From: Nigrospora sphaerica
Lineage: Eukaryota > Ascomycota > Sordariomycetes > Amphisphaeriales > Apiosporaceae
NCBI GenBank assembly: GCA_018287875.1
Contig: JAGVVL010000009.1
Location: 4,464,001 to 4,528,000, forward strand
DNA length: 64,000 nt
Direction of reading: 5' to 3'
Below, one piece after another: positions 28,563-51,712 of the stretch (the stretch's first letter is position 1; each line of letters starts with the position of its first letter). The notes beneath the pieces are model-generated. The model was given only the letters and a program-made list of their open reading frames with translations, searched no databases and was not told where the DNA came from. The position numbers and the translations under genes were made by a program.

Positions 28563-29462
28563 CTATGCACGGGTGGGAGGCTTCGGCCAAAGGCGGTTGC
28601 AGGTTACGGTGGTGTCGTCGACAATGGCACAATCCGTCTGCAAACCGCCCCGGACCGGATTCTCGCGCCAAGGTTCGTCGATATCCATAGCTTGGGCGCC
28701 ATCCAGGTTGAGAACCTCGCCGGATTTCGTAGTAGCGCTGATATCGCTGAATGTGACAGGGTCGAGGAAGTCGGTAAGAGGTTTGGGGTCGCCCATGCTC
28801 TTCAAGATGCCGACGACCCAGTTGGCTGTGTAGCCGCAAACGCCGTTGGGGTTATCCATACCACGGTAGACGGTCTGGCCGGTCCGCAGGTTCATCAGGC
28901 TGCCGTTCACCGAAATGCCGTTGGGAAGCACTTCCAGATCCATACGGATCTTGTCCCCGACAGCGATGGGGAAGCTCAGCACGTTTTCGTCGCCGCCGTT
29001 GTACAAGTCCCACCTCCAGCTCCCGCGGAACTGCGAGATGGGCTCTTGGGCCTCGGCTCGCGTCACTGCATGCCAGACGTGCACCGAGGGGCCGTCCTTG
29101 CTGCACGGCGGTAACCCATCGAGGCGCACGCCCATGTACATGCTCGAGGTCCAGTCGTCCTCTTGGCGACCGCGCCAGCTTGGTACAGTCACCGTGCCCG
29201 AGACCTTGTTGATACCCGTGCCGGATTTGGTGGCACCAGCCCAGTTCTCAAGCCTCAGCGAGTCACTGGATCTCTCGGCAAGCGGCAAGGATGTCTGTAC
29301 CATTAGTTTTCAGTGGTTAGAAAAGCATTAGCGCATGGGCATGGATGGACGGACCAAGATGCCATTGCCAAGCTCGATATCGGCGGGATCAAGGCCACGA
29401 GCCTCTCGTGCGTCGGTCAGACCTACGGCTGCAGCCCCCGCGAGCAGGATTGCAGGGAGCAT
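28563..29462 (-). CDS. Secreted G1 (eqolisin)-like protein, probably inactive
   Basis: Two exons (29462-29355 and 29294-28563) give 279 residues. The short intron has an unusual GTCCGT donor but a strong branch/acceptor (CTAAC, then GGTACAG). Residues 1-18 look like a signal peptide (MLPAILLAGAAAVGLTDA). The body matches the beta-sandwich of peptidase family G1 (aspergillo-/scytalidoglutamic peptidases): ENWAGATKSGTGINKVSGTVTVP-type opening split as ENWAGA and INKVSGTVTVP, then SMYMGVRLDGL, GDKIRMDLEV and YTANWVVGIL. The family's AEWIxE-type strand, which carries the catalytic Glu, here reads ANWVVGI. The strand expected to hold the catalytic Gln reads SVHVWHAV. Both acidic/amide residues therefore appear replaced. 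It may be a substrate-binding pseudoenzyme. It lies on the same strand as the repeat-precursor gene upstream. Confidence 0.8.
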
Positions 29463-30121
29463 GGTAGGTGATAGAGTTATTCAAAGCAGCGCAAAGAAAC
29501 TGAGGCCAGTCCGGCGAAGGATCGGCAACGTAGCGTCCAAGAATAGAGCGCAGAAGAGATGTCTCCAATGTGCTAATATGTCTTAATATTTCGAGCCTCT
29601 CTTTATACAGAGTCAATACCTCGGCTCCGGTCGGTATCTCGCCCGACCCCATGATCCGCAAAAGGAATGTCGCATCGGGACGTGCGGGGTTCTATGAATT
29701 CTATAGGTCACTTATGCTTTGACTAGTTAAAAGCCTCCCACAACGGCAGTTGTCTCCACTTTAGTTGCAAGATGAACCATACCTTCAGCCTCCTCTATTG
29801 GCGGCAGTAACGCATTGCCCCTTGGCACAATAAAAGATACGACCCAAAACAAGAAAGCGGACTCAGAGCAGATAACCAGGTTGCATAGACGGCGGACTAA
29901 GGAACCCCGGCTTTCTTTTTACGGTAACGGGTGCCCGCGGTCACATATACGAGAGGAGGCGTTCAGAGTTGTAGCAACGGATGTTATGTGTTTATCATAG
30001 CTGGCAAAGGTTGAGTAAGCCTGGTCAAGAAGTGCCCGGGAAGAGCAGCCATGACCAGTGGCGAGTTTCTTCGTTCTTGTTCTTATCAGAAACTGCCCGG
30101 CCCTCACAATCCCGTCTGATC
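29463..30121. other. Intergenic
   Basis: Holds the promoter of the G1-like gene and the 3' untranslated region of the repeat-peptide precursor. Nothing else was recognised. Confidence 0.5.
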
Positions 30122-30469
30122 CTACTTGCTTTCGTCAGAGGCCGCCAGGTCTCCTCCCCCGATACCGCAGGGTTCAGGCTCGCAAATCCCCCGCTTTTCG
30201 TGCTCGGGCGTGACCGCCAGCTCTGTCTCCCCGATACCACAGGGTTCTGGCTCGCAAATCCCCCGCTTTTCGTGTTCAGGCATGGCGGGAACCATGAGAT
30301 CATCTGCACCACAAAAAGGCTCGCAAATCGACCTGTCCCTGTGCTGTCACTTAGTATGAAATACCATGCAGTTCAGAGCTCGACTGAATACACACAAACG
30401 GTCGGGCAGTGCGACGCCAAGGGCTGAAGTGACCATGGCCATAAGGGTGAAAGTGTTGGTGAAACGCAT
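30122..30469 (-). CDS. Kex2-processed repeat peptide precursor (three repeats)
   Basis: Two exons, 30469-30396 and 30338-30122, are separated by a 57-bp intron (GTGTGT donor, CTAAGTGAC branch-like region, GCACAG acceptor) that removes an in-frame TGA. The product is 96 residues. Residues 1 to about 20 are a signal peptide (MRFTNTFTLMAMVTSALGVA). Three repeats follow: an ICEPFCGADD unit, then two units starting GICEPEPCGIG. The first two end in PEHEKR, a Lys-Arg site for the Kex2 protease; the last ends at the stop. Each repeat holds two cysteines (C-x3-C in the first, C-x4-C in the others) plus an acidic spacer. The layout is that of Kex2-processed repeat proteins, which include mating pheromone and dikaritin-type RiPP precursors. 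The core lacks the Trp-Cys...Cys-Trp pattern of alpha pheromones, and no UstYa-like gene is seen nearby. The mature product and function are unknown. A nearby AG offers an alternative acceptor that changes two residues only. Confidence 0.78.
30157..30281. repeat. 72-bp tandem repeat encoding precursor units
   Basis: Two near-identical 53-bp blocks (30157-30209 and 30229-30281) sit at a 72-bp period; a third, more diverged unit lies just above. The few differences between blocks are transitions or synonymous-looking changes in the precursor frame. The period is a multiple of three, as expected for repeats kept in coding frame. Confidence 0.85.
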
Positions 30470-30585: not shown

Positions 30586-30592
30586 ATTTATA
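30586..30592 (-). promoter_or_regulatory. TATA box of the repeat-peptide precursor gene
   Basis: On the minus strand this reads TATAAAT, about 117 bp before the ATG. This is a plausible core promoter position given a leader of about 85 bases. Confidence 0.5.
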
Positions 30593-32469: not shown

Positions 32470-32935
32470 TTACCAGCCCCCATTAGGGCAGTAAGCCCCG
32501 CTGGCGCCGCGCCAACCGCAGCACGAGCCGTCGCCGCCGCCGTTGCCAACCTAAGTTGACGAGTCGTCAGATAGAGACAATACAAGTATTGAAGGGGCTA
32601 TGGGAAGAATGCTGTACTTACACATGACCCAACCTGGCATTTGTAGTTGACTAAACCCCAGCGGCACGAGGTCCCGTTGCATGACTGTTGCCGTGATAAG
32701 GTTTGGATTAGTCGTTAATAACCGTTGCACAGAGAGGTATATAACAGATTCATGGGGCAGGATAGTCACATACGCCTGTGCTGGTGAAGTCTGAGGGACA
32801 CACCCTCTGGATGACGATCAGACCTGTATCCTCGGGGCTGCCCGAAACGGGCGAGGTCTCAGGTTCGGCCGGTGTCGGTGCGGCCGCCACAAAGACGAGC
32901 GCGAAGGCTATGGTGAGGAGAGTTGTACATTGCAT
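32470..32935 (-). CDS. Small secreted cysteine-rich protein
   Basis: Three exons (32935-32774, 32684-32622, 32550-32470) with GTATGT and GTAAGT donors and ACAG and TTAG acceptors. Both joins are phase 0, giving 101 residues. Residues 1-19 form a signal peptide (MQCTTLLTIAFALVFVAAA), followed by a Pro/Glu/Ser-rich spacer to about residue 40. The mature part has eight cysteines (VCPSD, SCNGTSC, YKC, GSC, SCC, YC), enough for four disulfides, and ends in GAYCPNGGW. The middle 21-residue exon begins and ends with Cys codons close to the splice sites. This is the profile of an apoplastic effector or antimicrobial-type protein. I recognise no specific family. A TATA box lies about 95 bp upstream of the ATG. 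Confidence 0.82.
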
Positions 32936-45750: not shown

Positions 45751-46074
45751 TGTTACAGGTTGGGACCTGGGAGATAGGCTCAGGCGCACCTGGCCTGAGC
45801 GTCTCACGAACCCCTCATATGAGGCTCCGAGTAGGTCTCTCCATTCGAACGCCAGGCTAGTGGTCAAGACCTAGGAGGGGAGCTGAGCAGCGATCCGAAC
45901 GTTCCGATCCGAACGTTCCGGTCCGAACGTTCCTATCCAAACGTTCCGGTCCAGTCTCGCAAGATTTAACGAGACGCTGCGCCCGGCCTCCTGAAGACGG
46001 TTCTCTTCTCTCTTCCCATCTAGAAAATAAACAGCATTTGGCCCTTCGATAGTGCTTTAAGGCTCAGCCTCTCA
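45751..46074 (+). repeat. 5' LTR of the Gypsy element
   Basis: 324 bp, starting TGTTACAGG and ending GCCTCTCA (TG...CA). Contains four tandem ~14-bp units with GAACGTTC palindromes at about 45893-45955. Confidence 0.92.
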
Positions 46075-47382: not shown

Positions 47383-50300
47383 TTGTCGCTACCGAAGATA
47401 GAGAAGCTTATGAATGGTTCGGCACTCACTATTGAAGGCCTCGTGAACAATAAAAAGATTATTCCTATCTTAGCCGACACCAGATGCGACTGCTACGTAG
47501 CAATCAGCGAAAAACTAGCTCGACAGCTAGACCTACTAAGGATCCCAACACGACCTCGAGTATTACGCGAAGCTACCTCTACAAAAAGCTTGCAGAAACA
47601 AGACCCTCGTATCTCGGAGATCGCTTACTTAGAGATCGACCTCGAAGGGTTCTCTCAAAGAATCTATGGATACGTGGTACCAGGCTTAAACCATTCCCTT
47701 ATACTTGGGAAGCCCTGGTTCGAGAAACATCGGGTAGTGTACGACGCTGTAGCACGCGAACTCCTTATAAGGTCTTAAGGAGAGTTTCGTATACGAGATA
47801 TAGAAGCTGCGAAGAGCTCTTCTATCGAGCCGCCTAAAGAGATAGGAGCGGCCTCCATCGGAACGCTTATAAGACGAGCAAGATGCTCGCAAGGCCCACA
47901 CGAGATACGGGTGTTCGCAGCCTCATTAGCGGACATCAAAAAGGCCCTCGGACCTAAGGATAAACAAGTGCCGTACAAGAAACTCCCGAAGGAGTTACGG
48001 AAGTGGAAGGACCTATTCGACCCAGCAGCCGACAACTGCTTACCACCACACCGGCCAGGGGTAGACCACACGATCCCCTTAACGAAGGGAACCGATGGTA
48101 AGGAACCAGAGGTGCCTTGGGGCCCCTTATATGGGATGTCGCGCGAAGAGCTCTTAGTGCTACGGAAGACCTTAACGGACCTACTGGATAAGAACTATAT
48201 CCGAGCGAGCAGCTCCGCCGGAGGAGCTCCCGTGCTGTTCGTGAAAAAGCCGGGAGGCGGACTACGCTTTTGCTGCGATTTCAGAGCGCTCAACGCGATT
48301 ACGAAGAGAGACAGATACCCTCTGCCGCTGATCCGAGAGACACTCACGACGCTCTTAAGAGTGCGCTGGCTCACGAAGCTCGATATCCGAGCGGCGTTTC
48401 ACAAGATCCGAATTGCTGCGGGCGAGGAATGGAAGACAGCCTTTAGGACCAGGTTCGGCCTATACGAGTGGCTCGTGACGCCATTCGGATTAGCTGGGGC
48501 ACCAGCTACGTTCTAACGATATATTAACTACACCTTAAGGGACTTACTAGACTATTCCTGTTCAGCTTACATAGACGACATCCTTATTTACTCTTCAAGG
48601 AGTAGGGAGGACCATATGAAAGAAGTCGAGAAGGTCCTAAGCCGCTTACAAGACGCTAGCCTAGGTCTCGACCTAGGCAAATGCGAGTTCGCGGTGAAGG
48701 AAACTAAGTACCTAGGGTTCATTATCGAAGCAGGCAAGGGAGTACAAATGGACCCTTAGAAGGTACTCGCGATCTAAGAGTGGGAAGCTCCTAAGACGCT
48801 TAAAGGAGTACGCAGCTTCTTAGGATTCGCAAACTTTTACCGAACGTTCATACCCGAGTATTTAGCGATTGCACGGCCGCTAACCGCCCTAACTAAGAAA
48901 GGAACCCCGTTCCAATAGGAACGAGAGCAACAGGGCGCTTTCGAGCACCTTAAGAGACGTTTTATCGAAGCTCCAGTCCTAGCCCAGTGGGACGCAGACC
49001 GATAAACGGTAGTCGAGACGGACTGCTTAGGACACAGCCTCGGAGGCTGTTTATCACAGTATAGCGAAGACAGTCTGCTACACCCAATAGCATACCACTC
49101 CCGGAAGCTCTCCCTAGCAGAGTTCAACTACGAGATCCACGATAAAGAACTCCTAGCGGTGATAGACTGCCTTAGCGCGTGGGACGGGATGCTAAGGAGC
49201 GTACGAGAGCCCTTCGAGATCCTAACGGACCACAAGAACCTCGAATACTTCCGAAAGGTAAGACACCTCACAGAGAGACAAGCTCGCTGGGCAGTTAAGC
49301 TCGAGAGGTACTCTTATAAGCTCCATTACCGACCAGGGAGGCTAGCAGACAGGCCCGATGCGCTGTCTAGAAGAGAGCAAGATAAACCGGATGGGTACGA
49401 CGACGAGAGAACGAAAGGCCGTTACCAACAGCTCCTTAAGGACGAGGGAGATCCTCGCGAGAAGCAACCAGCGGAGGAGGAGGAGAGTGAGGACCTCGGT
49501 GTTGGAGTCCTAAACATCGATAGCTAGCAATTCCTATCAGGAGACGAGTGCTTCGCCCATAAAGACCTTCAGACGCTCTGGAACCAAGCCATCGAGAAGG
49601 ATTCCGATTACCGAACTATGGTGGCAGACCTCCGTACGAAGCAGCAGTCCTTTGCTCCTAGCCTAAAAGGCGTCGTATCGATATCGGAGTGCAAGCTAGA
49701 CCCGGAAGGAAGAGTCAGGTTTCGCAACAGAATCTGGATACCGGCGTACGAGCCCCTCAGGACGGCCTTAATCCAGAACGCCCACGACTCGCACGCTTCA
49801 GGACACCCAGGAAGGGACGGAACGATTAGCATCCTAAACCGAAGCTTCTTTTGGCCTGGCCTTACATTAGCAGTTCGTCAATTCCTAAGGAACTGCGACA
49901 CCTGCGGCAAAAAGAGAGTCTGGAGAGACGCAAAGCAAGGGCTTCTAAAGCCGCTACCTGTCCCGGATAGGTTCCACGTAGAGATCTCGATCGACTTCAT
50001 GACGGATTTACTAACTACGTGCGAGACCGACCCGAGCTTCCTAATGGTGATCACCGACAGGCTATCTAAAGAGGTAACCTTAGAGGCTATGACAACGATG
50101 GAAGCGGAAGCCTGCGCCGAGACCTTCGTGAGAGCCTTCTGGCGGTTCCACGGATTCCCAAGAGCCATCACGAGTGATAGGGGCTCTAACTGGACTGGCC
50201 GATTCTGGACGCGACTTTGCTAGCTTACATCAATGGATCAGAGGCTAAGCACCGCCTTCCACCCTGAGACTGACGGAGCAACTGAACGAGCTAATCAGGA

Positions 50301-51152: not shown

Positions 51153-51349
51153 GAGGAGACGTACGGGAGGAGACGTACGGGAGGAGACGTACGGGAGGAG
51201 ACGTACGGGAGGAGACGTACGGGAGGAGACGTACGGGAGGAGACGTACGGGAGGAGACGTACGGGAGGAGACGTACGGGAGGAGACGTACGGGAGGAGAC
51301 GTACGGGAGGAGACGTACGGGAGGAGACGTACGGGAGGAGACGTACAGG
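51153..51349 (+). repeat. 14-bp minisatellite, 14 copies
   Basis: Fourteen near-perfect copies of GAGGAGACGTACGG between the pol stop and the 3' polypurine tract. Each unit holds the palindrome CGTACG except the last, which has GTACAG. Confidence 0.95.
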
Positions 51350-51384: not shown

Positions 51385-51712
51385 TGTTACAGGTTGGGAC
51401 CTGGGAGATAGGCTCAGGCGCACCTGGCCTGAGCGTCTCACGAACCCCTCATATGAGGCTCCGAGTAGGTCTCTCCATTCGAACGCCAGGCTAGTGGTCA
51501 AGACCTAGGAGGGGGGAGCTGAGCAGCGATCCGAACGTTCCGATCCGAACGTTCCGGTCCGAACGTTCCTATCCGAACGTTCCGGTCCAGTCTCGCAAGA
51601 TTTAACGAGACGCTGCGCCCGGCCTCCTGAAGACGGTTCTCTTCTCTCTTTCCCATCTAGAAAATAAACAGCATTTGGCCCCTTCGATAGTGCTTCAAGG
51701 CTCAGCCTCTCA
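51385..51712 (+). repeat. 3' LTR of the Gypsy element
   Basis: 328 bp; identical ends to the 5' LTR. The four-base length difference is explained by extra G/C/T bases in homopolymer runs. Confidence 0.92.

Follow-up and report, generated by a model that had tools for sequence, protein, structure and literature searches.

Does a short repeated stretch on the minus strand of a Nigrospora sphaerica contig encode a secreted peptide precursor and, if it does, to which of the known kinds does that precursor belong? A preliminary description had seen in it a spliced Kex2-repeat gene for a secreted peptide with a two-cysteine core. We looked at the locus within a window of 64,000 nucleotides, which is the whole stretch of DNA analysed, and against the rest of the genome. 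In our judgement the locus is very probably a working gene. Our best explanation, which we consider rather likely, is a small intron-containing gene for a secretory KEP-type precursor that gives simple disulfide-ring peptides.

The gene model and its reading frame

Read on the minus strand from 30469 to 30122, with a 57-nt intron taken out, the locus gives a predicted protein of 96 amino acids. The spliced frame is without an internal stop, and the protein has cysteines at positions 30, 34, 53, 58, 77 and 82 and Lys-Arg pairs at 49-50 and 73-74. Its features, with the analysis from which each was read, are as follows.

30587..30592, minus strand: TATA-like motif TATAAA, a candidate promoter element, 123 nt upstream of the ATG
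30396..30469, minus strand: exon 1, with its ATG (A at -3), a signal-like N-terminus and the first residues beyond it (spliced model, hydropathy)
30339..30395, minus strand: predicted intron, 57 nt, GTGTGT...CACAG (GT..AG); 48- and 63-nt alternatives are frame-preserving too
30122..30338, minus strand: exon 2, with three two-cysteine units, two Lys-Arg sites and the stop codon (spliced model)
30263..30331, minus strand: unit 1, SICEPFCG, a diverged linker and PEHEKR (unit alignment)
30191..30262, minus strand: unit 2, GICEPEPCG, a linker and PEHEKR (unit alignment)
30125..30190, minus strand: unit 3, GICEPEPCG, a linker and an acidic C-terminus without a dibasic site (unit alignment)

If the intron (30395-30339, minus strand) is retained, the frame runs into a TGA. 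Over the range of donors and acceptors that we enumerated, three splice choices preserve the frame, with introns of 57, 63 or 48 nt; all three share the signal-like N-terminus and the cores and vary only in a short linker, which leaves the precise junction tentative. A hydrophobic stretch, the hydropathy peak, spans roughly residues 7-20, with small residues near position 20. Each unit has exactly two cysteines, the protein has no tyrosine or tryptophan, and its last residues are ESK. Both Lys-Arg pairs are followed by GI; they are the only two Kex2 sites, no dibasic site preceding unit 1. What the preliminary description had reported of the locus can all be found in the sequence: the coordinates, the 57-nt GT..AG intron, the TGA of the unspliced frame, the three cores and two PEHEKR closings. 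The overlapping open frame that it placed on the minus strand exists as well (30025-30312, 95 aa from GTG).

The repeats are a real duplication at the level of DNA: copies spaced 72 nt apart are 86% identical across 71 nt, and TRF detects them too. What matters more is where the copies differ. Between units 1 and 2 the nucleotides for ICEP are identical at 11 of 12 positions, those for CG at 6 of 6 and those for PEHEKR at 16 of 18, and these three segments pooled hold three silent and no replacement codons, whereas the linker is identical at only 10 of 27 nt, with nine replacement codons and no silent one. The middle of the core varies, from F in unit 1 to EP in units 2 and 3 (one replacement plus a one-codon length change), and the closing PEHEKR is missing from unit 3. 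Between units 2 and 3, over a 52-nt block from PEHEKR through the core, four of the five changed codons are silent in the Lys-Arg frame, against none and one of five in the other two minus-strand frames. The antisense frame of 30126-30359 (plus strand) has four of five silent as well, and the remaining two antisense frames have none and one. A simulation, post hoc and of one frame only, made four random substitutions all silent in 0.46% of runs. The conserved segments would thus be the core and the Kex2 site, with linkers free to diverge, and this pattern is the best evidence for the Lys-Arg reading frame.

The same pattern bears on a small secreted protein that is uncut at its Lys-Arg pairs, or loses only a pro-part, and so stays a single cysteine-rich chain of three linked mini-loops. 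That the sites number only two would suit such a chain, and so would the presence, about 2.0 kb upstream, of a further likely small secreted protein that has eight cysteines; but PEHEKR is kept nearly as well as the core, with 16/18 nt identical between units 1 and 2 and only 10/27 in the linker, and we think the uncut chain unlikely.

Might there be no working gene at all, only a frame that happens to be open across a duplicated 72-bp stretch, or an older KEP gene in decay? The codon score is weak enough to invite the thought. Exon 2 scores -0.13, just above the 95th percentile of the noncoding reference (-0.15; 636 local segments, mean -0.48) and below the 5th percentile of the coding one (0.07; 66 segments, mean 0.45, scored with their own training table). 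Its in-register antisense frame does better, at -0.07, and the antisense changes are, as we have seen, equally silent. Several overlapping frames are open, among them two plus-strand frames across the repeats, 29981-30427 (148 aa from ATG) and 30126-30359 (77 aa from TTG), neither of them mentioned in the preliminary description, and the protein database searches described below found no relatives. Yet ICEP, CG and PEHEKR have changed only silently, a plausible intron brings a hydrophobic N-terminus into a stop-free frame behind a TATA-like motif, and neither the codon score nor the antisense silent changes explain why conservation of an antisense frame should stop at the Lys-Arg codons. The locus is also one of just two places to emerge when the window was scanned in all six frames for stop-to-stop stretches of 40 aa or more that have at least two KR/RR sites and a repeated 8-aa word containing such a site. 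That scan returned four rows, for the precursor repeats and for a 14-nt minisatellite at about 51.1-51.5 kb that is open in three frames. An empty or decayed locus strikes us as improbable, and the spliced Kex2-repeat secreted precursor that was first proposed still appears the best reading of the spliced model and its conservation. The minisatellite itself is perfect, 13.9 copies at 51153-51346 with a 100% match (TRF).

Relatives and neighbourhood

The gene seems to stand alone in its genome, whose ITS looks similar to that of Apiospora/Arthrinium (Apiosporaceae, Sordariomycetes). Across the 51.6 Mb and 33 contigs the 96-aa protein matches its own two exons only (E<=10), and no second copy was found. 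The pattern CEPxPCG occurs at five places, two of them in the precursor gene, and its reversed control at two; the other three places, when translated, have no repeat or Lys-Arg context and were taken as chance. Protein database searches with the precursor gave 0 of 12 and 0 of 4 candidates at E<=10. The adjacent A4 peptidase, used as a control query, gave 276 candidates, six of which reach E<=1e-20 (identities 82, 79, 54, 53, 53 and 45%); the two that are named come from Gaeumannomyces and Magnaporthiopsis, and none of the six is a named Apiospora protein. The database thus has few close relatives, which makes the negative result for the precursor a weak one. Pfam offered DUF4074 (E 0.078) and a beta-defensin (E 0.096), both below curated cut-offs and taken as chance, and neither NCBIfam nor PDB sequences gave a match at E<=10. 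The strings CEPEPCG, CEPFCG, ICEPEPC and PEHEKR are absent from the open-licence full texts searched, and in the broader open-licence literature no title or abstract opening among the best matches describes the gene.

Its surroundings hold the following.

28563-29309, minus strand: gene of an A4 (glutamic) peptidase, on the downstream side of the precursor gene and 0.7 kb away (profile match)
~32470-32935, minus strand: likely small secreted protein, ~101 aa, with eight cysteines after a signal-like start and two introns (no Pfam match)
49528-50223, strand not given: retroelement integrase domains (Pfam)
54.9-62.1 kb of the window, strand not given: MATE transporter, P450 and nitronate monooxygenase (profile matches)

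The A4 peptidase gene probably has a further exon upstream, reaching 29462 and carrying a signal-like start, and with it an intron and secretion. For the eight-cysteine protein, contigs C12 (8400404-8400730) and C1 (8807987-8808280) each give a partial match at E<=0.01, which suggests a small family. No Pfam match came from the four open frames examined between 29975 and 36170, out of a set with four more long ones at 34.6-43.6 kb. A different 14-nt unit, CGATCCGAACGTTC, lies at 45891-45952 and again at 51527-51588, flanking the retroelement region (TRF). The precursor gene is about 148 kb from the end of the contig, which is 4,641,982 nt long and terminates in TTAGGGTTAG, a stretch too short to prove a telomere. 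In A. malaysiana, effectors are reported mainly from gene-sparse regions (PMC12202052).

Dikaritin precursors (ustiloxin, phomopsin, asperipin-2a) share with ours Kex2-separated repeated cores and a signal peptide (here signal-like), and the gene could on that plan encode a dikaritin-type RiPP precursor, its core cross-linked by UstYa-type oxidases from other loci of the genome. UstYa matches number 52 genome-wide, counted as exon pieces rather than genes, and the MATE transporter, P450 and nitronate monooxygenase are some 24-32 kb away in the window. Only two of the 52 are on this contig, however, at 867 kb and 3,764 kb, with the precursor gene at 4,494 kb, so that the nearer is about 730 kb off; among KEP genes with UstYa neighbours the average distance is given as 3.09 genes (PMC7329392). 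A retroelement integrase frame stands between the precursor gene and the P450 region, whose three genes are too distant to count as a cluster with it without further evidence. Unlike dikaritins, too, the precursor has no UstYa/DUF3328 match in its vicinity and no tyrosine, lacks tryptophan besides, and has two cysteines per core; tyrosine is reported in 65.6% of the repeats of UstYa-linked KEPs, typical but not universal (PMC7329392). We regard a dikaritin here as very unlikely, and with the nearest match on the contig so remote the core does lie outside the dikaritin setting, as had been suggested. Elsewhere in the genome three groups, each of several UstYa matches, C12:7720327-7726256, C9:394779-403762 and C10:3524938-3531198, are candidate dikaritin-type RiPP loci in their own right.

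Proposed processing and role

For the KEP-type precursor we infer splicing, secretion, cleavage, disulfide formation and function from sequence, and the scheme would be a simple one. Signal peptidase would take off about 20 N-terminal residues. Kex2 would cleave after both Lys-Arg pairs and Kex1 would trim the pairs; the genome has one kexin P-domain match, at C33:3209788. Three acidic peptides of about 21-28 residues would be released: unit 1 would yield 28 residues, or 21 on loss of its N-terminal extension, unit 2 would yield 22 and unit 3 would yield 21-22. Each would combine a single small disulfide ring (Cys-x3-Cys for the first peptide, Cys-x4-Cys for the second and third) with a linear acidic tail. 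Calculated masses of the disulfide forms are 3153.403 Da for unit 1 with its extension and 2287.926 Da once that is gone, 2307.003 Da for unit 2, and 2101.893 Da for unit 3, falling to 1973.798 Da on trimming of its final Lys; reduced forms would be 2.016 Da heavier. Since no UstYa-type tailoring gene was found nearby, the ring would be an ordinary disulfide made in the secretory pathway. The preliminary description had spoken of cyclic or disulfide-bonded peptides; with two cysteines in every unit the disulfide is plausible, but cyclic in the dikaritin sense hardly suits a gene that is so far from a UstYa match and has neither Tyr nor Trp to offer.

As for what the peptides might do, the likeliest role would be that of an extracellular signal, or an agent directed toward other organisms, evolving fast in one lineage. 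In Coprinopsis cinerea, deletion of six KEP genes is reported to have had no apparent phenotype, and the authors suggest a role towards the biotic environment; KEPs of C. cinerea have been expressed in Pichia pastoris (PMC9769878). That result, as reported there, counsels caution against expecting a simple growth phenotype from a KEP-type gene.

Comparison with known precursor types

Alpha-type pheromone precursors, for which PMC3068285 prints the consensus WCXXGXXCW, resemble ours in plan, being secreted, Kex2-cut and composed of repeated units, and PMC6339444 describes two conserved cysteines in alpha-type pheromones of Sordariomycetes and Leotiomycetes. Could the gene then encode an alpha-type mating pheromone that has diverged strongly and serves as ligand for the fungus's own STE2 receptor? 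The two-cysteine units, the Kex2 sites and the absence of any UstYa match nearby fit that class. The genome has one STE2 match, and four exact, intron-blind patterns revealed no canonical alpha-pheromone repeat array in it. The strict pattern occurs at one place (reversed-pattern control 0), that without the first Trp at 16 (control 38), that with any two residues after Gly at 11 (control 6) and that without the last Trp at 10 (control 8). The ten places of the last pattern were translated and none is inside a Lys-Arg repeat. Those of the other patterns were judged by position only, save one shared with these ten, and no pair from the same search lies within 5 kb.

The cores themselves, ICEPFCG and ICEPEPCG, depart from WCxx(x)GxxCW. 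Unlike alpha-type pheromones they have no tryptophan, a cysteine spacing of 3-4 and not 6, and a glycine after the second cysteine, and the Lys-Arg pairs are not followed by the XA or XP dipeptides of the STE13 signature. The earlier judgement that the core falls outside the alpha-pheromone pattern is borne out by this misfit with the consensus as printed in PMC3068285. A true pheromone gene may, moreover, have slipped past patterns of this kind. We hold a diverged pheromone to be highly improbable. More specifically, the lineage's alpha pheromone might have been replaced by, or have diverged into, a Trp-less Cys-x4-Cys ring without STE13 trimming, read by an ordinary STE2 and encoded by this gene. 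We find that extremely improbable, and we rate it so low because a canonical gene may have escaped the exact, intron-blind patterns. The undetected canonical array in a STE2-bearing genome deserves a separate look. The hybrid-type pheromone HPP1 (PMC3068285) is like our precursor in its three copies of a Cys motif, its two Kex2-like sites and its shortness; its motifs, (LI)GC(TS)VM, have one cysteine, and it is described with a C-terminal CAAX, whereas our precursor ends in ESK, has no CAAX and begins with a signal-like N-terminus.

The closest likeness of the preferred KEP-type reading is of course to KEPs as PMC6339444 and PMC7329392 describe them, in the hydrophobic N-terminus, in short units that are nearly identical and have Lys-Arg between them, and in a compact, small precursor; like them, ours has no domain over a Pfam cut-off. 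Near-identical motifs separated by dibasic sites define a KEP, and here there are three units and two Lys-Arg sites. The pipeline of PMC6339444 asks for at least four fragments at KR/RR and our precursor gives three; that cut is an operational one, so we call the gene KEP-type and not a catalogued KEP. The same paper explains its three-repeat minimum as a guard against false positives and notes that some alpha-pheromone precursors contain fewer repeats than the majority of KEPs. PMC7329392 asks for three or more tandem repeats, each at least 8 aa long, between Kex2 sites; the precursor has three repeats longer than 8 aa, but only one with Lys-Arg on both sides, and its standing under that survey is doubtful. 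In the main text of PMC6339444 the named motifs are EDYXI, DADAATXYV[A/V]D, YVW[G/A][G/S], SPPHKT, QKLKVD and XSDW, and ICEPxxCG is not one of them.

How new, then, is it? PMC7329392 counts 7878 KEPs in 1345 of 1461 strains, of which 2560 are without a homologue, and on those figures a new homologue-free core is to be expected. The suggestion of a new peptide family therefore asks more of the data than one gene with no relative found can give. Our understanding of how such peptides are made is unchanged. If the gene is expressed, a two-cysteine core would be added to the catalogue of fungal Kex2-processed peptides, and the gene also illustrates precursors that the cut-offs of published surveys may pass over: short ones, with only three fragments and a signal peptide behind an intron. 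From its sequence, the precursor appears to be new in itself but to belong to a kind of fungal peptide precursor that is widespread and has been described before.
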